Part shown: positions 3,044-57,520 of the stretch, piece by piece
Layout of the letters: each line of letters begins with the position of its first letter
How positions within the stretch are numbered: the stretch's first letter is position 1
NCBI GenBank assembly: GCA_016284295.1
Contig: JAEEOP010000009.1
Span: 1 to 57,718 of the forward strand
Direction: 5' to 3'
Source of the DNA: Methanomassiliicoccaceae archaeon
GTDB taxonomy: Archaea; Thermoplasmatota; Thermoplasmata; Methanomassiliicoccales; Methanomethylophilaceae
DNA length: 57,718 nt
Made by a program: the position numbers and the translations under genes
The notes under the pieces: generated by a model
Database searches by the model: none
Told to the model about the DNA's origin: nothing
The model's input: the letters and a program-made list of their open reading frames with translations, nothing else

Positions 3044-3049
3044 ATAAAA

Positions 3050-7182: not shown

Positions 7183-7641
7183 ATGGCAGATCTGAAGAAC
7201 CAGAGAAGGATGGCAGCAGAAGTCCTGAAATGCGGTGAGAACAGAGTCTGGATCAACCCCGACAAGATCGAGGAGGTCGAGGACTGCATCACACGCGCGG
7301 ACATCCGTACCGCTATTGATTCCGGCCTGATCAAGGCCAAGGCCAAGAACGGAACTTCCAAGGGAAGGATAAGATACGTTCAGGGACAGAAGGCAAGCGG
7401 AAAGAGGAAGGGACCCGGTTCCAGGAAGGGAACGGCGAACGCCCGCGTCCGCGACAAGGAGCGCTGGATCGCTACGATCAGGCCCATCCGTGACGAGCTG
7501 AAGACCCTCAGGGCCGAGGGCAAGATCACCCCCTCCATCTACAGGCTTTATTACAGGAAGGCCAAGGGAGGAATGTTCAAGTCCCGCAGGCACCTTAAGC
7601 AGCACATGACCGCTGCTGGACACCTCAAGGAGGAGATCTGA
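7183..7641 (+). CDS. rpl19e: Ribosomal protein eL19
   Basis: Archaeal/eukaryotic 50S protein, 152 residues. The family pattern is clear: LKNQRRMAAEVLKCGENRVWINPDKIEEVEDCITRADIR, the glycine/arginine-rich bridge GQKASGKRKGPGSRKGTANAR, and the helix ending in YRLYYRKAKGGMFKSRRHLKQHM. ATG 7183 is preferred to the GTG at 7177 that overlaps eL32. Its stop overlaps the uL18 ATG by one base. Confidence 0.96.
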   Translation: MADLKNQRRMAAEVLKCGENRVWINPDKIEEVEDCITRADIRTAIDSGLIKAKAKNGTSKGRIRYVQGQKASGKRKGPGSRKGTANARVRDKERWIATIRPIRDELKTLRAEGKITPSIYRLYYRKAKGGMFKSRRHLKQHMTAAGHLKEEI

Positions 7642-8141
7642 TGGCAACAGGACCTAGATACAAAGTCGCATTCCGCAGAAGAAGAGAACTCCGCACCGAC
7701 TACTATGCCCGTAAGAAGCTCCTCACAGCGAGAGAGACCAGGGCCGTCGTCAGGAGATCCAACAAGAACATAACCATCCAGTTCGCGGACTTCGCGATGG
7801 AGGGTGACAAGGTCATCGCATCGGCCAGCACGAGAGAGCTGAAGGCAATGGGCTGGGAGTACTCCTGCTCATCGATCCCCGCAGCCTACCTGGTCGGATA
7901 CCTTGCAGGAAAGAGAGCAATTAAGGAAGGCGTCGAGTACGCAGTCCTCGACATCGGTATGCAGAAGGTCCAGCACGGCGGAGTCCTCTTCGCCACGGTC
8001 GCTGGAATGACTGACGCCGGGCTCGAGGTCCCCCACAGCGAAGATGTTCTCCCCGAGGAGGACAGGCTCAAGGGAAAGCACATCGACGACGCAATCGAGG
8101 CTGCAATCGACAGCCTGAAAGAGAAGATGGAGGCTGAGTGA
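7641..8141 (+). CDS. rpl18: Ribosomal protein uL18
   Basis: 5S rRNA-binding protein, 166 residues, archaeal type. It starts ATGPRYKVAFRRRRELRTDYYARKKLL and contains the SIPAAYLVGYLAGKRAIKEGVEYAVLDIG core; the acidic tail is that of archaeal uL18. ATG at 7641 overlaps the last base of the eL19 stop, and uS5 starts one base after its own stop. Confidence 0.96.
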   Translation: MATGPRYKVAFRRRRELRTDYYARKKLLTARETRAVVRRSNKNITIQFADFAMEGDKVIASASTRELKAMGWEYSCSSIPAAYLVGYLAGKRAIKEGVEYAVLDIGMQKVQHGGVLFATVAGMTDAGLEVPHSEDVLPEEDRLKGKHIDDAIEAAIDSLKEKMEAE

Positions 8142-8142
8142 A

Positions 8143-8823
8143 ATGACTGACTGGGTTCCTAAGACTAGGCTCGGACAGATGGTCCTCAACGGCGAGATCA
8201 CAACGATGAGCGACGCCCTGGCGACCAAATTGCCTCTCCGTGAGCCCGAGATCGTGGACATCCTGCTCCCCGACCTCCAGGACGAAGTCATCGACCTCAA
8301 CATGGTCCAGAGGATGACCGACTCCGGAAGGAGGGTCAGGTTCGCAGTTACCTGCATCGTTGGTAACGGCGACGGATTCATCGGATACGGAAGGGCCAAG
8401 GGAAAAGAGGTCGGACCTTCCATCAAGAAGGCTATCGACAACGCTAAACTGAACATAATCGAGATCAAGAGGGGCTGCGGATCCTGGCAGTGCGGTTGTG
8501 GAAACCCCCACAGCCTGCCTTTCGAGGTAAAGGGCTCCACCGGATCCGTCACCGTCACGCTGAAGCCCGCTCCCCGCGGAGTGTCTCTGGCAGTCGGTGA
8601 TGTCGCGAAGAGTCTGCTGACCCTCGCAGGTGTCCACGACGCCTGGGGATTCGCAAGAGGAAACACCAAGACAAAGGTCAACTACGCAATGGCAACCTTC
8701 GAGGCTCTGAAGATGACCTCCCGCATGAGGGTCACCGACGAGCAGGTGAAGAACCTGAACATCGTTACCGGACCTACCGGTATCAAGTTCGCTGAGACTG
8801 ATGTCGAGACCGAGGAGGAATGA
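8143..8823 (+). CDS. rps5: Ribosomal protein uS5
   Basis: 30S protein involved in decoding fidelity and mRNA unwinding, 226 residues. The double-stranded RNA-binding-like domain has the FAVTCIVGNGDGFIGYGRAKGKEVGPSIKKAI motif around residues 66-97, and the archaeal GCGSWQCGCGNPHSLPF insert and the second fold follow (VSLAVGDVAKSLLTLAGV). The cysteine pair in the insert is a family feature. It ends with an acidic ETEEE tail. Confidence 0.96.
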   Translation: MTDWVPKTRLGQMVLNGEITTMSDALATKLPLREPEIVDILLPDLQDEVIDLNMVQRMTDSGRRVRFAVTCIVGNGDGFIGYGRAKGKEVGPSIKKAIDNAKLNIIEIKRGCGSWQCGCGNPHSLPFEVKGSTGSVTVTLKPAPRGVSLAVGDVAKSLLTLAGVHDAWGFARGNTKTKVNYAMATFEALKMTSRMRVTDEQVKNLNIVTGPTGIKFAETDVETEEE

Positions 8824-8825
8824 AG

Positions 8826-9290
8826 ATGACATACGTAGTCATTCGTGTCCGCGGACAGCCCGATGTCAACTACAACATCGAGCACACCATGGGTCTCCTC
8901 GGACTCAACAAGGTGAACAACTGTGCCGTCATCCCGGAGAACCCCTCCACCAAGGGAATGCTCCAGGTGATCAAGGACTACTGCACTTGGGGAGAGATCA
9001 ACCAGGAGACGCTCACCGCCCTCATCCGCGCACGCGGAAAGGTCGTCGGTGATAAGCCTCTGGACGATGCCTACCTCAAGGAGAACTCCGAGTTCGCCAC
9101 AGTGGAGGACATGGCCAAGGCCATCATCGAGAACAACTACAAGATGAAGGACGTTGTCGGCGTCAAGCCCATCTTCCGTCTGCACCCCCCGATCAAGGGA
9201 TACGAGGGCAACAAGCGCTCGTTCCAGAATGGCGGTGCCCTCGGATACAGGGGAGACAAGATCAACGACCTCGTCAACAGGATGATCTGA
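8826..9290 (+). CDS. rpl30: Ribosomal protein uL30
   Basis: 50S protein, archaeal long type, 154 residues. It starts MTYVVIRVRGQPDVNYNIEHTMGLLGL, the ferredoxin-like uL30 fold, and ends with the archaeal C-terminal domain FRLHPPIKGYEGNKRSFQNGGALGYRG. ATG 8826 is chosen because GGAGG at 8814-8818 lies seven bases upstream; the ATG at 8820, which overlaps the uS5 stop, has almost no spacing. The family usually begins at this point. Confidence 0.95.
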   Translation: MTYVVIRVRGQPDVNYNIEHTMGLLGLNKVNNCAVIPENPSTKGMLQVIKDYCTWGEINQETLTALIRARGKVVGDKPLDDAYLKENSEFATVEDMAKAIIENNYKMKDVVGVKPIFRLHPPIKGYEGNKRSFQNGGALGYRGDKINDLVNRMI

Positions 9291-9300
9291 GGTGTGAGAG

Positions 9301-9723
9301 ATGCCAAGCAGAACCAAGAAATTCAGGGGATACAGGACACACGGACGCGGTAAGAAGTCCGGACGTGGAGCAGGTATCATCGGTGGACACGGTATGGCCG
9401 GATACGGCAAGACCGGGAAGATCGGTATGCTGAAGGAGGACAGGAACTACTTCGGGCGCCACGGTTTCAAGAGACCTCAGTGCACTGTTGAAGCAAACCG
9501 TACGATCAACGTCGGAGAGCTCTCCGAGAAGATCGAGACCTTCGTAGCGATGGGATTCGCGACCAAGGAAGGTTCAGCCTATAAGCTGAACCTGACAGAG
9601 GCCGGGATCGACAAGCTGCTCGGTAACGGTAACATCGACGTCGCCGTCACGGTGACAGTCGACTCCGTCTCCGAGAAGGCTCGCGAGAAGATCGAGGCAG
9701 CCGGCGGATCGATCGCCGAGTAA
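9301..9723 (+). CDS. rpl15: Ribosomal protein uL15
   Basis: 50S assembly protein, 140 residues. Glycine/basic-rich start (RTKKFRGYRTHGRGKKSGRGAGIIGGHGMAG), the FKRPQCTVEANRTINVGELSEKI middle and a C-terminal AAGGSIAE. One of only four genes in the window that use TAA as stop. It ends the ribosomal block proper; secY follows after 22 bases. Confidence 0.96.
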   Translation: MPSRTKKFRGYRTHGRGKKSGRGAGIIGGHGMAGYGKTGKIGMLKEDRNYFGRHGFKRPQCTVEANRTINVGELSEKIETFVAMGFATKEGSAYKLNLTEAGIDKLLGNGNIDVAVTVTVDSVSEKAREKIEAAGGSIAE

Positions 9724-47831: not shown

Positions 47832-49115
47832 TCATTCCCTGAACATCATATCCGTCGGCTGTCCGCATCTGAAGCGGACCATGTTGTTGAACATCTCGTC
47901 GAGGATGTATCTGCACCCTTTCATACCGACCAGGGTCCTGCCCATGAGGTCGACGGACCTTCCGTGGGGGATGCATACCCCTATCTTGCCAACGGGGCTG
48001 TGCGTCATCCTGGATTCCAGCGCATCGAGGCCGTTGCAGAACATCACTTCGACCATGCCGTCGGTGCCGTCGAGGGCGCCCTCCAGCCCGTAGGATGAAA
48101 GCAGCTCTCTGATCTCCGGTAGGTATTCCTCATCGTACAGCGAGATCCTACGGGGGACCATGCCGAAGGTTTTGATCATCCATTCCGTCAGGGGATAGAC
48201 TGTCGACGAATCGCCCTCCGCGGTGAATCCTCTTGAATGCATACCGCGGGCCATGCGATCGTAGTTGAGCAGGATGCCGTGCACTCTGTCCGCATCCCTC
48301 TGGATGGAATCGAGCGCAGGTGTCGGATCCAATCCCAAAGCATCGGCGACCTCCTTCACGAAGGACCTATTGGCGGGATATCCTACCGGGGCCCCTTTGG
48401 ACGGTCTGAGGTACGGCGTACCGAACCTCTCCTGAAGCATCCTGGCGGTCCCCATGCAGTGCTCCGGATGGATCAGGATGTTCAGCGATGCCTTGCCGAT
48501 ATTCTTCACCTAGGATTCGTCTGGCAGGCATCCCGGGACGCAGTTAACCTTCACACCCATGGATTCCAGCAGTACGCACAGCTCGTCCGCTCCGGATTCC
48601 CAGCCCAGGTCCATGATGCTGTACCCGAGGATGTTCACGGAACCGTCCCTCCCGCCTTCCAGATCCATGTTCTCAAGGATCGTGCGGACTGTGAGGTCGT
48701 ATCCTTCTGCAAGCTCCATGGAGGACAGGTCCTTCCCGATGTGGATCGGGCCGTTGCTGCCAAGCTCCAGACCGGACAGGTCGGTGCATATCAGGGACGC
48801 CCCCAGCGTGTCCAGGAGAACGGCCCTCTTGCCCGTGATCGAAGTGACGGACTCCAATCCTTCGGAGATCTTCTGCTCCGCGCCGAATATGATGTCGTTC
48901 CCGTTGAGGTACGTGCATGGCAGGCGGGACTGCCTGCTGAAGTACTTGGACCGGCAGCAGGCCTGGTCCTCCGGGTAGTAAGAGGGGATGAGCTCGTGCA
49001 GCATTATCTGCGAGCGGGAGCGGCATCCGCCGGACCCGTTGATCATCGTCACCGTCAGTCCCAAGGATTCGGAGGCGATTATCGCTCCAAGCAGTCCGTC
49101 CGGTCTTGTCATCAT
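47832..49115 (-). CDS. Nitrogenase component-1-like protein (NifK/NifD-type) with in-frame TAG
   Basis: 428 codons from ATG 49115 to TGA 47832 with TAG at codon 202 (48512-48510). Before TAG: NGSGGCRSRS (Cys31), PEDQACC (53, 54), and PCTYLNGNDIIFGAEQKISEGL (Cys67), matching cluster-ligand and NDxxFG motifs of nitrogenase component 1. After TAG: VKNIGKASLNILIHPEHCMGTARMLQERFGTPYL and SKGAPVGYPANRSFVKEVADALG, the second Rossmann domain, in the same frame and with no other break. UAG is therefore probably decoded. ATGA overlap with the fusion gene upstream; GGAGG at the right distance. Confidence 0.82.
48510..48512 (-). other. In-frame UAG codon in NifK-like gene
   Basis: TAG between CVPGCLPDES and VKNIGKASLNI, inside a helix where relatives carry an ordinary residue. 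Confidence 0.8.
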
Positions 49116-51184
49116 AGCCCTTCCTCCCATGTGCCCTTCCCTATGAGCATGCAGTCCCTCATGGTCTGCAGCCAGAACCTCACGCCGTACAGCCCGGGGT
49201 ACCTGGAGTCCAATACGGTCCAGCACAGCCCGGTCCTGCCGACGCGGTACGCGTCGTTGGTGACGACGACGTCTATCTTGTTCCTCGATGAGAACTCCCT
49301 CAGGTCGCACACCTTCGCCCCGGTGGCCGTCTCCACACCGGGAATGGGTGCGGGGGGTTCGGTGTTGTCGTCGATCGTGCTGTCGAGATACATGACCTTC
49401 AGTATGTCCATGCCCAGCGCTTTCATCGTCTCGATCTGCCATGTGAGGTCCCTGTGCCTGATGCAGAATACGACGACGCTCTTCCCCGAGAGGATCGGTT
49501 TGAATTCCTCGATGATGGCATCGAACCCGGACCTAAGCGTTTGGACGATCCTCTGCAGCTCGGTGCGCGGGGTCCCGATGTAATTGGCCAGCCTCTCCGC
49601 CCATTCGATGCACTTGCACAGTCCCGACGGCTGCTCTAGGAGCAGCGCGCGGCGTCTGCCTGTGACCTCCGATATCCTCTCGCAGATGCGGTCGTCCAGC
49701 ATGGTGTCGGCTATCTGGATGTCGTACTCGGAACCGCAGAACCCTTCGATGTCCTCCAGCGAGCAGAAGTCCAGGAACCTGGTGCGGACCTTCAGTCCGA
49801 ACATGGAGAACATATCGTCCATGACCTGCCGGGGGATGTCCCTGGCGGAGCCGAAGAACCCTCTCGCTATGAGATTCACCGTCCCCTTCTCCATCTCCCT
49901 GGGGCGCATCCTGCATATCAGGGAATCCATCAGACCGTATATCCCGCCGAACTTGCTGGACAGGAACCTGGAGTCGGCCAGGACCGGGATGACGTCCACG
50001 GAATACATGGAGGACGCCTTCCTGGCCAGCTGCATGATGTCCGTTCCGATTATCTCGGATGAGCAGCTGGGGATGAGGATCACATGCTCGTGGCCGTCGC
50101 ATTTGGCCTTCTATACGGTGTCGTATACAGCTTTGTCAGGATCGGTGGAGATCTTCGATGCGTCAAGGCAGGTGCTGTAGAACGTGGCGCACGATATGTC
50201 CTGGTCCCTGACGGTAGAGTTGTTGATCAGTCTGCGCTTGAACGCGTATTCCATGAGGTACGCGCAGTTCCTGGCACCGTGGAGGATGACCGCGGCATCC
50301 GAGATCCTCAGCGCGGCATCGACAGCACCGTGCGAGGTGCATGCGGGCATGGCGACCGGCCCCCTGTATGTGAGGCCGCGCTCCTCGTCCACGTCATCGA
50401 ACATGCATCTCTTCTCGATGTACCTGCGCAATGCGCCGTTGGTCGGTGTCCTGCCGGCGGCCATGTCGTTCAGGTCCTCGTCGGTCAGGCTATGCGGGTC
50501 GTACAGTTCAGGGGAACCCTGGATCAGGTCGCATATCCTCCCGATGCATTGGCTTTCCGGGGAATACGGGTACAGGGCGGCCAGTGGTTTGCCTGCGGCC
50601 TCCGCCTTCCTGAACATGTCCGACCTGGGGATCTCGCAGATTATCGGTATCCCTACGGAACTGGAGAAGCGTTGGACCATCTCGGTATCGTCGTCGGTCC
50701 TGTGGTTCAGGACGATCCCCATCACGCTCCCGGACGGGTTGATCTTCTCGAGTCCGCGGAGGATGTTGTTCATCGCGTACACGGACATGAACTCACCCGA
50801 TGTTATCAGCAGTACGGCATCCGCGTTCTCCTTCCTGGCCGGGACGGAGAATCCTCCGCAGACGACATCTCCGAGGACATCGGAGATCCTGTAGTCCCTG
50901 TTGATTTCAGATATCCTGTTGAACAGCAGTTCCAATCCCTTGCCTGCGCACCCGGTGCCGGGCTTCACAGCCTGGCATTCGGCGCACAGTATTCCGTCGG
51001 TGCCGTCGAAGACCGTCTCCGTAGTGACCTGGGTGCCTTCCAGCAGCAGCCTGCAGGAGTCTTTCTTGGGATCGCATCCCACATGCAGCACGGAGCATCC
51101 CCTGGCCGAAAGGGCGTACGATATGTTCGCCGATATCGTGGATTTGCCTATGCCGCCCTTGCCGTAGATCGCCAGTCTGAACAT
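49112..51184 (-). CDS. NifH-NifD-like single-chain nitrogenase-like fusion with in-frame TAG
   Basis: 691 codons from ATG 51184 (GGAGGATC before it) to TGA 49112, with TAG at codon 358. Residues 1-265 are NifH-like: P-loop GKGGIGKST (8-16), HVGCDPKKDS (34-43), and the 4Fe-4S cysteines GCAGKG (Cys79) and VVCGGF (Cys109), which bridge a NifH dimer. From about 270 a component-1 domain begins: PACTSHGAV (Cys282), HGARNCAYL (Cys307), then UAG 358, then HVILIPSCSSEIIGTDI (Cys374), the third cluster-ligand motif. The continuation runs to WEEGL. I am not aware of a described single-chain NifH-NifD. Substrate unknown. Confidence 0.82.
50111..50113 (-). other. In-frame UAG codon in NifH-NifD fusion gene
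   Basis: TAG between PDKAVYDTV and KAKCDGHEHVILIPSCSSEI; the helix before the PSCSSEIIG ligand loop is split by it, so the domain cannot fold if translation stops here. Confidence 0.8.
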
Positions 51185-51830: not shown

Positions 51831-51940
51831 GCCGGGGTGGCTCAGCCTGGTGGAGCGTCGGACTCATAGGGTTCTGGTCAATTAGGGCCTCTTCCAGGGA
51901 AATCCGAAGGTCAAGGGTTCGAACCCCTTTCCCGGCACCA
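51831..51940 (+). tRNA. Elongator tRNA-Met (CAT) with intron, CCA encoded
   Basis: Acceptor GCCGGGG pairs with TCCCGGC; anticodon stem TCGGA/TCCGA; anticodon CAT at 51865-51867. An intron of about 33 bases (about 51869-51901) follows position 37, the standard archaeal site, with bulge-helix-bulge-compatible ends. T-arm GGGTTCGAACCCC. Discriminator A at 51937 and CCA at 51938-51940 are genomic. The next gene's stop codon starts at the following base. Confidence 0.93.
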
Positions 51941-53128
51941 TCATCTCTTCTCGTGATCCTCGTTCAGTATCGCGTTGCATGTGTCGACGAGGAAGTTTAT
52001 CGCCGTCCTGTCGACGAGCGAGTACTGTATCTCCTTGCCGTCGCGTTCCGAGGACACTATGTTGCATTCCTTCAGGACCTTCAGGTTGTGCGATGCCAGC
52101 GAAACGGATTGGCCCGTGACGCCTGCGAGCTGGTTCACGCTCATCTTCCCGCCCATGAGGGCGGATACCAGCGACAGCCTGTTGGGGTCGGCCAGCGCTT
52201 TCAGCACTTTGTTGTACCCCATGTCCAGGTCACGGATCCTTTCAGTGACCGCTCTGAGGTCCTCGTCGGTGTATGCCGCGGACCCCATGACCTCGCTGTA
52301 GAGGCTCGACGTCCCTCTGGGCATGCGGGCTATGATCGCGAACGACAGGGGTATCTTCATCACGCCGTCGCGGGTCAGGACGGAGAACGGCTCCTTGTCC
52401 AGGGACAGTATGCGGAACTCCGAGAATCCGAGGCCCAGGAGGACGCCCATGTCCCATGCGGGACGCCTCTCCCTGCTGGCAGGGAAGTTGGGGGTCAGGC
52501 GGCGGATGATGTTCAGGTCCACGTTGTCGATGTTGGTGTTGGCATGGAGGTTGTTGTCTTTGCCGTTCTTCATGTCTAGGTAGTTGCGGCGCCTGCGGAA
52601 GTCCTCGTCGAACTCGTCCAGATACCAGTTCCCGTCGATCACGATCAGGAACCCTCCGGGCTTGAGGAGGTCCATCCATGACGAATACGCTCCGATGGGA
52701 TCGGTCAGGTTCCATATCACGCTCTTGGCGATGACGATGTCGTACTCATGCTTCAGAAGTGGCGGATTGCATACGTCCCCGAGGACGAAGTTGATGTCCA
52801 CATGTGCGTACAATGCGTTCTGCCTTGCGTATTCGAGCATCTTCTCCGATGCATCCACAGCGGTGACGTCATGCCCGAGGCGTGCTACGGTTATCGCGGC
52901 GAGGCCCGCTCCCGTGCCCATGTCGGCCACCTTCAGCCGGCGGTTGAACCCGAGCTGATTGCGCATGATGTTCCTGAGGACATTTGAATCCAAATCCAAT
53001 TCTTTCCTCGTGGAGATGCTGTAGCCCTTCGCACGGGCGTTCCAATAGTCCGTGGATTGCTGTTGGATGGAAGAACTGTCCGCTCCGTGCGCGCCTTTTG
53101 GTACCGTTTGATCCTCGGATGCCATCAT
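51941..53128 (-). CDS. SAM methyltransferase fused to ArsR-type winged helix
   Basis: 395 residues. N-terminal class I methyltransferase (about 30-285): VADMGTGAGLAAITVARLGHDVTAVDASEKML (motif I), YDIVIAKSVIWNLTDP, LKPGGFLIVIDGNWYLDEFDEDF. A C-terminal ArsR-like HTH (about 305-390): LKALADPNRLSLVSALMGGKMSVNQLAGVTGQSVSLASHNLKVLKECNIVSSERDGKEIQYSLVD. The methyltransferase half closely resembles the free-standing enzyme at 54780. I infer regulation linked to binding of its small-molecule substrate. TATA-like CTATAAGAA (53148-53156, minus strand) precedes it. Confidence 0.85.
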   Translation of the reverse strand: MMASEDQTVPKGAHGADSSSIQQQSTDYWNARAKGYSISTRKELDLDSNVLRNIMRNQLGFNRRLKVADMGTGAGLAAITVARLGHDVTAVDASEKMLEYARQNALYAHVDINFVLGDVCNPPLLKHEYDIVIAKSVIWNLTDPIGAYSSWMDLLKPGGFLIVIDGNWYLDEFDEDFRRRRNYLDMKNGKDNNLHANTNIDNVDLNIIRRLTPNFPASRERRPAWDMGVLLGLGFSEFRILSLDKEPFSVLTRDGVMKIPLSFAIIARMPRGTSSLYSEVMGSAAYTDEDLRAVTERIRDLDMGYNKVLKALADPNRLSLVSALMGGKMSVNQLAGVTGQSVSLASHNLKVLKECNIVSSERDGKEIQYSLVDRTAINFLVDTCNAILNEDHEKR

Positions 53129-53249: not shown

Positions 53250-53280
53250 ATGTTTCCAAAAAACCCCCCAATTGGAACAT
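53250..53280. promoter_or_regulatory. Inverted repeat in the leader of the binding-protein gene
   Basis: ATGTTTCCAA (53250-53259) and TTGGAACAT (53272-53280) form an imperfect inverted repeat, just after the TATA-like TTTTTATATGAT (about 53239-53250) and before ATG 53302. Possible operator for the adjacent ArsR-type fusion. Confidence 0.45.
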
Positions 53281-53301
53281 ATATCCAATAAAGTGATTGA
53301 C

Positions 53302-54723
53302 ATGGAAAAGAAGACTTTGGCAATAGTCATCGTTATCGCCGTCGTGATCGTCGTGATCGCAGCGGCATTCGTCGTCATGTCCGGTAACAACGGGGGGAAC
53401 ACACCCTCGAGGTCCGAGGCAACCGACGTCCGTCTCACCGTGTTCGGTAACGCGAACGGTGACGACTACCTCAACAACGATGATGTCCAGTATATTCAGA
53501 ATATTATTGATGGTAAGCAGTCCCTCGTCGACTCCCCCAAGGTGCAGGTCCTGACCGCATACGGCACGACCAAGTACACCGCAAGGTACTGGGCCGACGC
53601 CAACTGCGACGGAGCGGTCGACAGCAAGGACCTCTCCATCGTGAAGAACATCGTCAACAAGGTCAAGGGCACCGAGGTCAAGTTCTTCGATGTCGACAAG
53701 ATGGTCGGCACCTGCGAGTTCCCCCTGACCACCTACGCCGTCGGATACAAGAGCAACTACGAGGCGGAGCTGATCCTCAAGAACGTCGCCAACTGCACGT
53801 ACGTCGACAACCAGGTCGGAAATGGCGGATCCTACGCCCCTTGGTTCCAGATGTTCCTGGATCAGAACCCCAAGTGCTTCGGAAGCAGGTTCACCCCCGA
53901 CTACGAGACCTTCAAGGGAGACGCGCCCTCCTACATCCTCTCCGGAACCCGCGCATGGTTCGATCAGAACATGGAGGAGACCGTCGCACCCCTCGGAATC
54001 GACGTCGTCAGGCTCCCCTTCTGGGAGGACACCACGACCGTCTCCGGAATCCTCACACTCGGATGCCTGTGCAACCTTGATGCGGCTGCACAGGAGTACG
54101 CGAAGAGAGCTGACGCAGTGCTCGACTACATCCAGGACTACGTCAGCGGAATCAAGAAGGAGGACCGCCCCCTGATCTTCGCCGGATACAACGGAACCAG
54201 TATCTCGACTTGGCACAACGGTATCCAGGAGCTCATCGAGGCCTCCGGCGGAAGGACCCCCTACGACGTGGGATTCACCAACGGAAGCATCGACGGAGAG
54301 GGAGTCAAGGTCATGGATCCTGACTGGATCGTCTTCGACATGTACTACGGATTCCTCGAGACCGACGACCAGCCCGCGGAGTACAACTACATCTACGACC
54401 AGGGCAACACCAACAACAGGTACTTCAACGCCATCGCCGGAAGCAGGGCCTACTACAACGACCAGGTCCTGATCCTCGGTCAGGGTGTCTACATGGGTCC
54501 CGCATCCTACATCGGAATCGCATGGGTGTTCAACCACATCTACCCCAACGCGAAGCAGTTCGATGTCAAGTCCATGCTCAGCGACTACATCAGCACCTAC
54601 CACCCCGACAAGGCCAGCACCGACTACATGTCTCAGGACTGCTTCGATGTGGATACCTACGACGACTGGATGTCTAAGAACGTCGCAGGCTACACCAAGG
54701 TGAAGAAGACCTACAAGGCCTGA
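53302..54723 (+). CDS. Dockerin-bearing ABC binding protein (FecB/BtuF type)
   Basis: 473 residues. An N-terminal anchor or signal (KKTLAIVIVIAVVIVVIAAAFVV) precedes a type I dockerin-like pair of EF-hand repeats: GNANGDDYLNNDDVQYIQNIIDG and DANCDGAVDSKDLSIVKNIVN (about 50-115), each with the DxNxDG-type calcium loop or close variant. The TroA-like solute-binding domain (about 130-473) follows (DVDKMVGTCEFPLTTYAVG, then WEDTTTVSGILTLGCLCN, YDDWMSKNVAGYTKV). Next to FecCD/FecE it should capture a metal chelate or corrinoid. The dockerin suggests docking to a surface cohesin. Confidence 0.88.
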   Translation: MEKKTLAIVIVIAVVIVVIAAAFVVMSGNNGGNTPSRSEATDVRLTVFGNANGDDYLNNDDVQYIQNIIDGKQSLVDSPKVQVLTAYGTTKYTARYWADANCDGAVDSKDLSIVKNIVNKVKGTEVKFFDVDKMVGTCEFPLTTYAVGYKSNYEAELILKNVANCTYVDNQVGNGGSYAPWFQMFLDQNPKCFGSRFTPDYETFKGDAPSYILSGTRAWFDQNMEETVAPLGIDVVRLPFWEDTTTVSGILTLGCLCNLDAAAQEYAKRADAVLDYIQDYVSGIKKEDRPLIFAGYNGTSISTWHNGIQELIEASGGRTPYDVGFTNGSIDGEGVKVMDPDWIVFDMYYGFLETDDQPAEYNYIYDQGNTNNRYFNAIAGSRAYYNDQVLILGQGVYMGPASYIGIAWVFNHIYPNAKQFDVKSMLSDYISTYHPDKASTDYMSQDCFDVDTYDDWMSKNVAGYTKVKKTYKA

Positions 54724-54733
54724 AATTGCTTTA

Positions 54734-54756
54734 CGAAGGGGGATCCACCCCCTTCG
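54734..54756 (+). terminator. Intergenic hairpin after the binding-protein gene
   Basis: CGAAGGGGG-ATCCA-CCCCCTTCG, 9-bp stem. It lies between the binding-protein and methyltransferase genes; probably partial termination or mRNA stabilisation that keeps the binding protein in excess over permease. Confidence 0.65.
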
Positions 54757-54779
54757 ACCCTTTACGGAGTGTTGTTCTT

Positions 54780-55544
54780 ATGCAGTTGACAGAGGATGTC
54801 AAGGATTACTGGAACCTCAGGAGCGAGGGATTCTCCTCTTCCATAAGGGAGGAGGCGGAGTTCAAAGGCGCCGCGCTGGCGGACAAGCTCATAAGTGACG
54901 CTGGACTGAGGCCGGGGTGCAAGGTCCTGGACATAGGATGCGGGCCGGGTCTGTTCACGATGGTCCTTTCGGGACGCGGGATGGATGTCACCGGCATAGA
55001 CTATTCCGACGAGATGCTCAACAGGGCCAGGGCCAATGCGCGCGAGCGCGGCATAGACGCGGAGTTCGTGAAGATGGACGCCTGTGACCTCGATTTCGAG
55101 GATCGCTCCTTCGACGCCATCGTGAGCCGCAACGTCCTCTGGAACCTGGAGAGGCCTGCCGACGCCTACAGCGAGATGCTGAGGGTGCTCAGACCGGGGG
55201 GAAGACTGGCCGTGTACGACGGCAACTTCTATCTTCACCTGTTCGACGAGGATTTCAGCCGGGCAAGGGAGAGTCGCAGGGAGGCATGGAATGGCAAGGA
55301 CGTCAAGGGAAGCCATGACAAGTATCGCGGAGACGTCGATTTCAACATCATAGAGGAGCTGGCTAAGGACCTGCCGCTGAGCAGGGAGCTGAGGCCGGCG
55401 TGGGACGTGAAGGTCCTGCAGCAGCTGCCTTGCTCAGACATAGCGCTGCGCCTCCATCGCGGCAGAGGAGGATCCGAGGAGGATGGCCGCCTGGTGGTCG
55501 GCTTCGAGATAATCGTCACCAAGGAGAATGATCATGTTCAGTAA
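54780..55544 (+). CDS. SAM-dependent methyltransferase (paralogue of the fusion)
   Basis: 254 residues. Motif I VLDIGCGPGLFTMVLSGRGMDVTGIDYSDEML (about 45-76), IVSRNVLWNLERPADAYSEMLRVLRPGGRLAVYDGNFYLHLFDEDFSRARE, and a C-terminal NIIEELAKDLPLSRELRPAWDVKVLQQL that mirrors NIIRRLTPNFPASRERRPAWDMGVLLGL of the gene at 51941. Inside the transporter operon (overlaps the permease by 11 bases), so it should act on the imported ligand or on an associated cofactor. TAA stop. Confidence 0.87.
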   Translation: MQLTEDVKDYWNLRSEGFSSSIREEAEFKGAALADKLISDAGLRPGCKVLDIGCGPGLFTMVLSGRGMDVTGIDYSDEMLNRARANARERGIDAEFVKMDACDLDFEDRSFDAIVSRNVLWNLERPADAYSEMLRVLRPGGRLAVYDGNFYLHLFDEDFSRARESRREAWNGKDVKGSHDKYRGDVDFNIIEELAKDLPLSRELRPAWDVKVLQQLPCSDIALRLHRGRGGSEEDGRLVVGFEIIVTKENDHVQ

Positions 55545-56643
55545 GTTGCGCAGGGGAGAACCCACTCTTCAATCCTCAGGTCCCGCCAGTGCCGGGGACA
55601 CCATGGCAAGGGATTATCGCAAGTACGTCTACAGGAAGATCCTGTTCATCATAGGCTGTGTCGTGGCGGCGATCATAGTGTTCGCCTACGCGACCACGTA
55701 CGGCTCGTCCAACATCAGCATGTGGGACGTCTACAGTACGATCTGGAACCACTTCTTCAACCCCGAGCTCGTCGACCCTTACGACGAATGGGCCATATTC
55801 ACGATCCGTCTGCCCCGTATCTGCGCGGGACTCATCGCAGGTATGTCCCTCGGTGTGGCGGGAGCCGCCATGCAGAGCATGATGAAGAACCCGCTCGCGG
55901 ATCCTTACACCACGGGTATCTCCTCCGGAGCATCCTTCGGTGCGACGCTCGCAATCGGTCTCGGGATATCCGTCGGCGGAGCCGGGGATGCCGGACTCGT
56001 CCTGACCGCATTCGTGTTCTCGCTGATCCCGGCGGCTGTCATCATATTGGTCTCATCATTGAAGCACACCAGCGCCGCAACGATGATCCTCGCGGGTATC
56101 GCTGTGATGTATCTATTCAACGCCGCCACCACGATCATAAAGCTCGGACTGTCCGATTCCAGCCTGTCCGCAGTGTTCAACTGGACCGTTGGAGACCTGT
56201 CGGGGACCACATGGTCCGACTGTCAGGTCATGCTGGTGTTCACAATAATCGGTACTGTCATACTGTGGGCGCTGTCCAAGAAGCTCAACATCCTCATCAC
56301 CGGGGACAAGAACGCCAAGGCGCTCGGTCTCGATGCGCACAAGCTCCGTATCGTGCTGCTGATCCTCATCTCGCTGATGGCCGCGTCCATCGTGTGCTTC
56401 ACGGGAATCATCGGATTCGTCGGACTCGTCGCTCCGCACATAGTGAGGATATTCCTCGGTTCTGACAACCGCTATCTGATCCCGGCATCGGCGATGTTCG
56501 GTGCGGTGTTGCTGATGGTGGCCGACCTGATCTCAAGATGGGTCATAGCCCCCACGTTCCTTCCGGTCGGAGTGATCACCGCGTTCATCGGATGTCCGAT
56601 GTTCATGTACCTGCTGATCAAATCCAAGAACTCGGTGTGGTGA
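55534..56643 (+). CDS. FecCD-type ABC transporter permease
   Basis: 369 residues. About nine to ten membrane spans with the FecCD/BtuC pattern: TIRLPRICAGLIAGMSLGVAGAAMQSMMKNPLADPYTTGISSGASFGA, LGLDAHKLRIVLLILISLMAASIVCFTGIIGFVGLVAPHIVRIFLGSDNRYLIP. The EAA-like coupling helix is GLVAPHIVR. ATG 55534 follows GGAG by seven bases; ATG 55528 is possible. Imports metal-chelate, siderophore or cobalamin-type ligands. Confidence 0.93.
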   Translation: MFSKLRRGEPTLQSSGPASAGDTMARDYRKYVYRKILFIIGCVVAAIIVFAYATTYGSSNISMWDVYSTIWNHFFNPELVDPYDEWAIFTIRLPRICAGLIAGMSLGVAGAAMQSMMKNPLADPYTTGISSGASFGATLAIGLGISVGGAGDAGLVLTAFVFSLIPAAVIILVSSLKHTSAATMILAGIAVMYLFNAATTIIKLGLSDSSLSAVFNWTVGDLSGTTWSDCQVMLVFTIIGTVILWALSKKLNILITGDKNAKALGLDAHKLRIVLLILISLMAASIVCFTGIIGFVGLVAPHIVRIFLGSDNRYLIPASAMFGAVLLMVADLISRWVIAPTFLPVGVITAFIGCPMFMYLLIKSKNSVW

Positions 56644-56647
56644 TGGA

Positions 56648-57520
56648 ATGGGACTGAGCATCAACGCGAAGAAGCTGGATCCCGAGATGAAGATGGATCC
56701 GGACCAGCCCATAGTGGACGTCATCAAGCTCGATTTCGGATACGATCCCAACGTGCCTGTCATCAAGGACATCAACGTCACGCTGGACAAGCCGGAGTTC
56801 GTATGCATCATGGGTCCGAACGGTGTAGGCAAGTCCACGCTGATCCACTGCATGAACCGCATCCTGAGGTTCACCAACGGTACGATCATGATCGGAGGCA
56901 ATGACACCAAGGACATGAGGCTCAAGGAGCTGTCCTCCTACATGGGATACGTTCCCGCGTCGAGCGAGGACACGTTCCCTCTGACCGTTGTGGACACCGT
57001 AATGGTTGGACTGCAGAACGACTTCAAGTTCGGGACCAACGACGAGGACCTGAAGAGGGTCTACGAGACTCTGAGGATGATGAAGATCGAGCACCTGGCC
57101 ATGAGGAACTTCAACGAGCTGTCCGCCGGTCAGCACCAGAAGGTCATGCTCGCGAGGGGACTCGTGAGAACGCCCAGGATAGTGCTGCTCGACGAGCCCA
57201 CATCCAATCTGGACATCAAGCACCAGATCGATGTGACGAAGACGCTCAGCATGCTGCCGAAGGCGAAAGGGATGCTGGTGATCATGATCAGTCATGACAT
57301 CAACATCACCGCGAAGTTCGCGGACCGCATCATCATGCTCTCCGGCGGAGGGGTATTCGCCGACGGCACGCCTGCGGAGGTCCTCACCAAGGAGAACATC
57401 AGGACCGTCTACGGAGTGGACGCGGATGTCATCGAGGTCGATGGCAGGCCGCACATAATCCTCAACGACTGTCTCGAGGATGCGTACATCCCCACGGACC
57501 TAGGTCCGGTGGATGACTGA
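56648..57520 (+). CDS. FecE/BtuD-type ABC transporter ATPase
   Basis: 290 residues. Walker A GPNGVGKST (about 57-65), a Q-loop region YVPASSEDTFPLTV, signature LSAGQHQKVMLARGLV, Walker B IVLLDEPTSNLD and the switch histidine in ISHDINI. Signature glutamine replaces the more common Gly-Gly of LSGGQ, which is frequent in this family. Terminal gene of the transport operon; a terminator-like hairpin follows. Confidence 0.94.
   Translation: MGLSINAKKLDPEMKMDPDQPIVDVIKLDFGYDPNVPVIKDINVTLDKPEFVCIMGPNGVGKSTLIHCMNRILRFTNGTIMIGGNDTKDMRLKELSSYMGYVPASSEDTFPLTVVDTVMVGLQNDFKFGTNDEDLKRVYETLRMMKIEHLAMRNFNELSAGQHQKVMLARGLVRTPRIVLLDEPTSNLDIKHQIDVTKTLSMLPKAKGMLVIMISHDINITAKFADRIIMLSGGGVFADGTPAEVLTKENIRTVYGVDADVIEVDGRPHIILNDCLEDAYIPTDLGPVDD

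Follow-up and report, generated by a model that had tools for sequence, protein, structure and literature searches.

What does an archaeon, probably a gut methanogen, reduce with a nitrogenase-like enzyme whose electron donor is built into the same chain as its catalytic component? The question is raised by a gene, here called HD, in a stretch of 57,718 nucleotides (the window) of contig JAEEOP010000009.1, from assembly GCA_016284295.1 of a Methanomassiliicoccaceae archaeon. HD lies on the minus strand, from an ATG at 51184 to a TGA at 49114-49112, and encodes 690 residues if an internal TAG is read as an amino acid. Its product joins a NifH-like ATPase (Pfam Fer4_NifH at residues 3-242, E 6.8e-57) to a NifD-like domain (Pfam Oxidored_nitro at residues 282-644, E 2.4e-35), and the next gene encodes a partner, K, that also matches Oxidored_nitro (E 4.7e-25). 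Because relatives of HD often adjoin B12-type importers, chelatases and switches, HD may reduce a scavenged metal-ring molecule and not nitrogen. The proposal that we develop, and that we regard as evenly poised between right and wrong, is that HD and K form a two-protein, ATP-driven reductase of an imported metal-tetrapyrrole, resembling dark-operative protochlorophyllide oxidoreductase (DPOR), with a corrinoid as the leading candidate among the substrates that we infer. The two genes are made up as follows (pLDDT, predicted local distance difference test score of the structure model).

50450-51184, minus strand: H domain, HD residues 1-245, a NifH-like P-loop ATPase (Pfam; the alignment with close relatives starts at residue 1 or 2).
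50342-50449, minus strand: linker, HD residues 246-281, poorly conserved (14-46% identity to 12 relatives; pLDDT below 50 for residues 246-280).
49115-50341, minus strand: D domain, HD residues 282-690, NifD/NifE-like, with Cys282, Cys307 and Cys374 (best PDB-profile matches NifE, NifD and methylthio-alkane reductase D).
50111-50113, minus strand: in-frame TAG, HD codon 358, a probable pyrrolysine in a variable column (sequence, alignment, model).
49112-49114, minus strand: TGA stop of HD, overlapping the ATG of K (ATGA; sequence).
47832-49115, minus strand: K, the NifK/BchB-like partner, 427 residues with its TAG read, Cys31 conserved (Pfam, profiles, model).
48510-48512, minus strand: in-frame TAG, K codon 202, a probable pyrrolysine in a variable column (sequence, alignment).

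An earlier note on this DNA, which named no strand, had described a single frame encoding an entire NifH-like ATPase followed by a component-1-like domain. Both Pfam domains do lie in that frame, and the protein-family search that the note had proposed matches Fer4_NifH as well as Oxidored_nitro; the TAG at codon 358 was overlooked, and under the standard code the chain would end there, inside the D domain. No stop is present within residues 265-280, where the note had suggested that one might separate two proteins. A frameshift or an assembly join as the source of the fusion was ruled out by the single frame throughout and by the similar conservation on either side. The single-chain architecture is real and widespread in relatives, and in the window it depends on the TAG being decoded as a residue.

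Both TAGs, at HD codon 358 and K codon 202, most likely encode pyrrolysine, since tRNA-Pyl(CUA), pylSBCD and a TAG-containing MtmB are present and TAG seldom serves as a stop. The genome to which the window belongs (G000; 1.86 Mb in 45 contigs) carries the genes that mark a pyrrolysine-decoding organism (pylT, pylS and pylBCD): PylS scores above its curated cut-off, a tRNA-Pyl with anticodon CTA (CUA-type) lies directly upstream of the PylS match, and PylB, PylC and PylD follow directly downstream, above their cut-offs. Adjoining the pyl genes, just upstream of tRNA-Pyl, a 460-residue frame with one TAG (L045:1411-2793) matches the monomethylamine methyltransferase MtmB over its full length at E 3.8e-208; NCBIfam gave no match to this frame at 1e-10. 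With the standard code, the 58 open reading frames (ORFs) picked in the window stop at TGA in 53 cases, at TAA in 3 and at TAG in 2, namely HD itself and an ORF antisense to K. The picker is crude, and it did not pick K because the longest start of K overlaps HD. The TAG triplet is not scarce, with 540 occurrences in all frames of the window next to 2019 of TGA and 414 of TAA. Relatives vary at both TAG columns (36 rows for HD, 30 for K). HD shares 46-58% identity with 12 relatives over the 76 residues preceding its TAG and 39-62% over the 72 that follow, and K is 64% identical to L007 over 101 residues before and 51% over 98 after. In the HD model, codon 358, modelled as Lys, falls in a confident helix (residues 349-362, in a block of pLDDT 92).

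It is possible that the TAGs are genuine stops and that HD and K are broken genes (pseudogenes) or short proteins in this genome. Decay of this kind would suit two TAGs in two adjoining genes, the two intact fused paralogues that G000 keeps, and the finding that TAG ends 3 of the 77 ORFs with a visible stop picked, under the standard code, from five other stretches of G000, one of the three being the MtmB frame. That last count also tells against TAG serving solely as a sense codon. Such decay nevertheless strikes us as quite improbable in view of the complete pyrrolysine system with its TAG-containing MtmB, the near disuse of TAG as a stop in the window, the similar degree of conservation before and after each TAG, the lack of any frameshift or internal TGA or TAA in HD and K, and the occurrence of exactly one TAG in 10 of the 150 family matches listed, HD included, as opposed to a TGA in one (by hand count). 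Some archaea reportedly decode every TAG codon as pyrrolysine, according to a report of 2025. Pyrrolysine in HD and K would sit at sites tolerating many residues, and the sequences fit TAG being an ordinary sense codon, accepted where the residue is unimportant. The 2014 genome paper that covers Ca. M. alvus argues the same for that organism (PMC4153887, in the part available), and its Table 7 of predicted pyrrolysine proteins, as available, names no nitrogenase-like protein. If pyrrolysine is indeed present in both subunits, two metalloenzyme subunits would be added to the predicted pyrrolysine proteins beyond methylamine metabolism.

The fusion is not a unique oddity, which is ruled out by two further fused copies in G000 (contigs C3 and C45, without internal stops) and by many fused relatives. 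The paralogues and relatives have H and D joined in an open frame with K next to it; the window has this arrangement only if TAG is a residue. Of 100 genomes in the family (G000 included), 93 have some match at E 1e-20, and many family matches are uninterrupted open frames of more than 690 residues, with identities of up to 51%. Among 80 loci from named genomes, 16 count as fused, with a single ORF covering H and all or part of D; their hosts are methanogens of four families, an unplaced Thermoplasmata archaeon, Clostridium tetanomorphum and other Bacillota, a Treponema and a myxobacterium. K comes after HD in all 18 archaeal regions and in 15 of the 16 named fused loci, the exception being L071, where the contig ends inside D. 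In a tree of the H domain (61 of 121 rows), a branch with support of 100/99 places 32 of 33 split rows on one side and all 28 fused rows together with the H-only row L043 on the other. Two label changes are needed, which can be read as one fusion and one loss, and the tree fits a single fusion event common to the methanogens, Bacillota, treponeme and myxobacterium; which side is derived had to be deduced, because the tree is unrooted. An earlier FastTree of all 121 rows needed four changes (the main split, L085, L074 and L043), of which L085 was an artefact of TAG read-through in a bacterium and was relabelled split, and L074 is cut by a contig end. L071, from a genome labelled Methanomethylophilaceae, falls in the first tree among rows of the genus to which the window belongs, and this, with the pyrrolysine, MtmB and F430 genes of G000, suggests a methanogen of Methanomethylophilaceae type. 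Neither L126 nor L043 has a D domain within the stretches examined. L043 (9397-10569, on G000:C33) is a lone NifH-like protein, 390 residues long, that has fused proteins as its closest relatives, with no D or K in the 19.5 kb examined; it may have lost its D domain, or it may serve another chain.

The earlier note knew of no precedent for the fusion, but the literature holds one. A 'fused nifH/nifE' is named in Ca. M. intestinalis in the 2014 genome paper (PMC4153887), and a fusion survey of 2024 (PMC11237513) lists a NifH-NifD/E fusion as cluster 443, neither giving a function for it in the parts available. These Methanomassiliicoccales proteins have the same architecture as HD and come, as far as can be deduced, from the same archaeal order; the accounts of them, again as available, are without the partner, the riboswitch link or the TAG, all of which are described here. 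The available parts of PMC9012536, PMC10418091 and PMC12176620 hold nothing on the fusion, and we found no paper tying a fused NifH-NifD to cobalamin or corrinoids among the best-ranked papers of the open-licence literature. What is new here is the functional lead, that is, the links to an importer, to CbiK and to riboswitches, the fusion itself being already in print.

What kind of enzyme the chain makes can be read in part from its cysteines. In an alignment of the window with 13 of the 16 fused loci (n=14; L071 and L076, which are partial, and the tandem L072 were left out), Cys79, Cys109, Cys282, His302, Cys307 and Cys374 of HD are each present in 14/14, as is Cys31 of K. The five cysteines of HD are exactly those that the earlier note had picked out. 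The H domain has the P-loop and the two cluster cysteines of a reductase component, Cys79 and Cys109 being predicted [4Fe-4S] ligands, and the D domain has the Oxidored_nitro assignment and three alpha-type cysteines of a catalytic component. The profile of the D family matches NifE best (4.3e-54), then NifD and the D subunit of methylthio-alkane reductase (MAR; 1.3e-43), and its cysteine triad (Cys282/307/374) aligns to cysteines of NifE and NifD. At the column of a further Cys of NifD, NifE and MarD, profile alignments show Cys in 1/14, the Methanosarcina copy, and no His other than His302 reaches 60% conservation in the D domain. The cofactor ligands of A. vinelandii NifD we take to be Cys275 and His442, and the Cys at this column presumably binds the cofactor in MAR. 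The pattern of conserved cysteines suits a single bridging [4Fe-4S] cluster, with no ligands for a cofactor, as in DPOR; BchN has three Cys, as does D here. The HD model (pLDDT 78.5, predicted template modelling score 0.56) shows two fair domains, and the best 50 Foldseek matches to it are all Fe proteins (NifH-type), for which reason the assignment of the D fold comes from sequence profiles. The model of K has a pLDDT of 83.5 and is closest to DPOR BchB (9buo_B, E 3.5e-17, template modelling score 0.75).

That HD-K could be a fused F430 reductase (CfbCD), or a nitrogenase that fixes N2, is suggested by the best-scoring models of the H domain, which are CfbC and NifH. Both scores are far below the curated cut-offs (CfbC 203.7 bits against 402; NifH 184.1 against 394.35), nifD reaches 23.8 against 653.55, and the conserved cofactor ligands and the full P-cluster set in K are lacking. 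The genome has separate F430 genes (L044), with CfbD at 348.7 bits (cut-off 268.4) and, nearby, a CfbC-like protein at 329.8 against 402 and a CfbB-like one at 484.1 against 560. With the cut-offs and the separate CfbD both against it, an F430 or N2 function was rejected, and we find it barely credible. CfbC/CfbD are like HD-K in that they carry out ATP-driven tetrapyrrole reduction in methanogens (PMC7242693, in the part available), and differ in being separate proteins, present in G000 besides HD-K.

Another possibility is a reductase of organosulfur compounds or thioethers, like MarHDK or the isethionate system NflHDK. It would agree with the profile of K, whose best match is MAR K (9d9u_C, 1.7e-34; BchB next), the nearest solved K by this measure and a point against a DPOR-like enzyme, and with the match of D to MAR D given above. 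The reductase of MarHDK is separate, however, the Cys of MAR D has its counterpart in a single fused protein of the 14, K has one invariant Cys and not the P-cluster set, and no sulfur-metabolism family was noticed among 40 neighbour proteins scanned with Pfam. We think this very unlikely. The comparison with DPOR (BchL with BchNB) is more appealing, given the H-like ATPase, the K model that is most like BchB and the absence of FeMo-co-type ligands. It has its own differences, since H is fused to D here, the scores are far below the cut-offs for DPOR and chlorophyllide oxidoreductase (BchL 122.1 against 345.15, BchX 125.5 against 331.2, BchB, for K, 50.3 against 490.35), and phototrophy is not expected in a methanogen.

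For the substrate of a DPOR-like HD-K, the window itself supplies only importer, methyltransferase and regulator evidence. The genes upstream of HD are the following (SAM, S-adenosylmethionine; ABC, ATP-binding cassette).

51831-51937, plus strand: tRNA of 107 bases, between HD and the methyltransferase (Rfam; not found by ARAGORN).
51941-53128, minus strand: SAM methyltransferase fused to an ArsR-type metalloregulator domain (family models).
53272-54723, plus strand: substrate-binding protein of the Peripla_BP_2 family (Pfam).
54726-55544, plus strand: SAM-dependent methyltransferase (family models).
55528-56643, plus strand: FecCD/BtuC-family importer permease (Pfam).
56648-57520, plus strand: importer ABC ATPase (family models).

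The tRNA probably bears an intron, since Rfam detects it and ARAGORN does not. The BtuC-like scores of the importer are all below the cut-offs and do not tell what it carries. A FecCD permease is found in 13 of the 18 archaeal HD regions against 3.1 expected from genome counts, and 0 of 200,000 simulated draws reached 13. Of 13 close orthologues (counting the window; some contigs are short), 4 have the chelatase CbiK no more than 5 kb from HD, against 0.13 expected, a chance of about 1e-5.

A pointer to a corrinoid comes from bacterial fused loci. Rfam scans covered 13 of the 16 fused loci (L062, L071 and L076 were left out) and 27 of 64 other loci, and a cobalamin riboswitch lies upstream of the fusion on the same strand in 3 of 8 bacterial fused loci (L065, L066 and L069). 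At L066, the aptamer (54.7 bits) spans 2647-2880; hairpins that resemble terminators, recognised by eye, come next, and HD starts at 3046, 165 bases on. At L065, one gene stands between riboswitch and HD. At L069 the riboswitch is followed by a cobalamin adenosyltransferase (Pfam 49.3 bits, cut-off 24), a binding protein, FecCD, a gap, HD and K, in that order. Together with the neighbouring genes, the riboswitches suggest a concrete candidate class of substrate for an enzyme family that is widespread but has no assigned function.

Several observations weigh against a corrinoid or other tetrapyrrole as the substrate, or against the DPOR-like chemistry that we propose. The FecCD and CbiK statistics take no account of shared ancestry or of the tendency of transport genes to cluster, and the regions were hand-picked. 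G000 has its CbiK on a different contig (G000:C16) and none in the window, and its importer set is large, with 29 FecCD permeases in the 1.86 Mb. Siderophores and haem are also among the cargoes of FecCD importers. Cobalamin riboswitches were found by Rfam in 0 of 5 archaeal fused loci and are missing in 5 of 8 bacterial ones, and the scan of the window returned two tRNAs only and no riboswitch. The riboswitches of L065 and L066 may count once, because the two loci are sisters in the tree; at L069, the gap between transporter and HD is at least 731 bases, and the adenosyltransferase scores 58.6 with the NCBIfam model PduO, under the cut-off of 108.45. In the proteins themselves, the proposal does not account for Cys67 of K, present in 12/14, or for the column of HD residue 468, which holds Cys in 12/14 (a VNCRF-type motif) and Thr in the window and is not known as a ligand position.

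It is also possible that HD-K reduces an iron or other metal chelate imported by FecCD proteins (a siderophore, a metallophore or haem) and frees the metal by reduction. The FecCD genes near HD in the 13 archaeal regions, with binding-protein and ABC genes, would serve such an enzyme equally, and an ArsR-type metalloregulator adjoins HD in the window. Pairs of ABC proteins of about 600 residues each are found near HD in L046 and L063, a TonB receptor (7229-9682) and a Peripla_BP_2 protein (9713 on) lie downstream of the myxococcal copy (L072) on the same strand as the fusion, and in a genome of the same genus a nonribosomal peptide synthetase gene and a phosphopantetheinyl transferase (L049:12583-15783) are within 4 kb of the fused HD. 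The cobalamin riboswitches, adenosyltransferase and CbiK indicate tetrapyrrole chemistry rather than a siderophore, however, and a nitrogenase-type, ATP-driven donor would appear to exceed the need of ferric reduction. On balance a chelate reductase seems unlikely to us, if less so than an organosulfur reductase.

How would a metal-tetrapyrrole reductase with a tethered donor work? HD and K would together form a nitrogenase-superfamily reductase, in which the NifH-like part of the HD chain feeds the NifD-like part and its NifK/BchB-like partner. The cluster of H proteins is held between two H subunits, and the working unit should be at least (HD-K)2, because two H domains must pair for one [4Fe-4S], each giving Cys79 and Cys109. 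As (HD-K)2 holds two H domains, it would have a single H2 donor for two D-K faces. ATP hydrolysis would push electrons out of the H2 cluster and on to a [4Fe-4S] cluster between D and K, held by Cys282, Cys307 and Cys374 of D and Cys31 of K. With no FeMo-co-type cofactor, the electrons would pass straight to an organic substrate in a cavity, as in DPOR. This substrate would be a metal-tetrapyrrole, a corrinoid first of all, delivered by the neighbouring FecCD importer, and its reduction at the ring or the metal could make adenosylation, remodelling or metal removal possible. That docking of donor and catalyst is intramolecular in HD is a fair inference. Nitrogenase-type enzymes are held to work with an Fe protein that repeatedly docks and is released. 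A tethered donor, present in many genomes of archaea and in some of bacteria, offers a natural way to ask whether release is necessary. In a Myxococcota metagenome-assembled genome, L072 (2627-5884) encodes a chain 1085 residues long in which a tandem H-H is fused to D, both H copies having P-loop and cysteines, and K is next; in this chain the donor dimer may come pre-built.

Perhaps the fused HD-K proteins constitute a class of B12-regulated, ATP-driven reductases for scavenged corrinoids or related metal-tetrapyrroles, with a tethered donor and, in this genome, pyrrolysine in both proteins, a class undescribed in the literature searched. In so full a form the idea is tentative, and we are inclined to doubt it more than the two-protein tetrapyrrole reductase itself. 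Among known systems, the unassigned nifHDK homologues of operons II-IV of Desulfitobacterium hafniense are likewise linked to transporter genes, and the account of them, as available, describes neither a fusion nor a corrinoid link (PMC3306737).

Riboswitches also occur beside genes that are not fused. At L083, a cobalamin riboswitch is 3.6 kb away on the opposite strand. In two Negativicutes loci, cobalamin riboswitches lie just upstream of a separate H gene (L090:4702-4878 and L131:4693-4874), with CobN and FecCD nearby in L090 and CbiK and a TonB receptor nearby in L131. These two were not counted for the fused group, because their split HDK genes belong to another branch and are not sisters of the fused ones; they form a second, unfused nitrogenase-like group with a link to B12.

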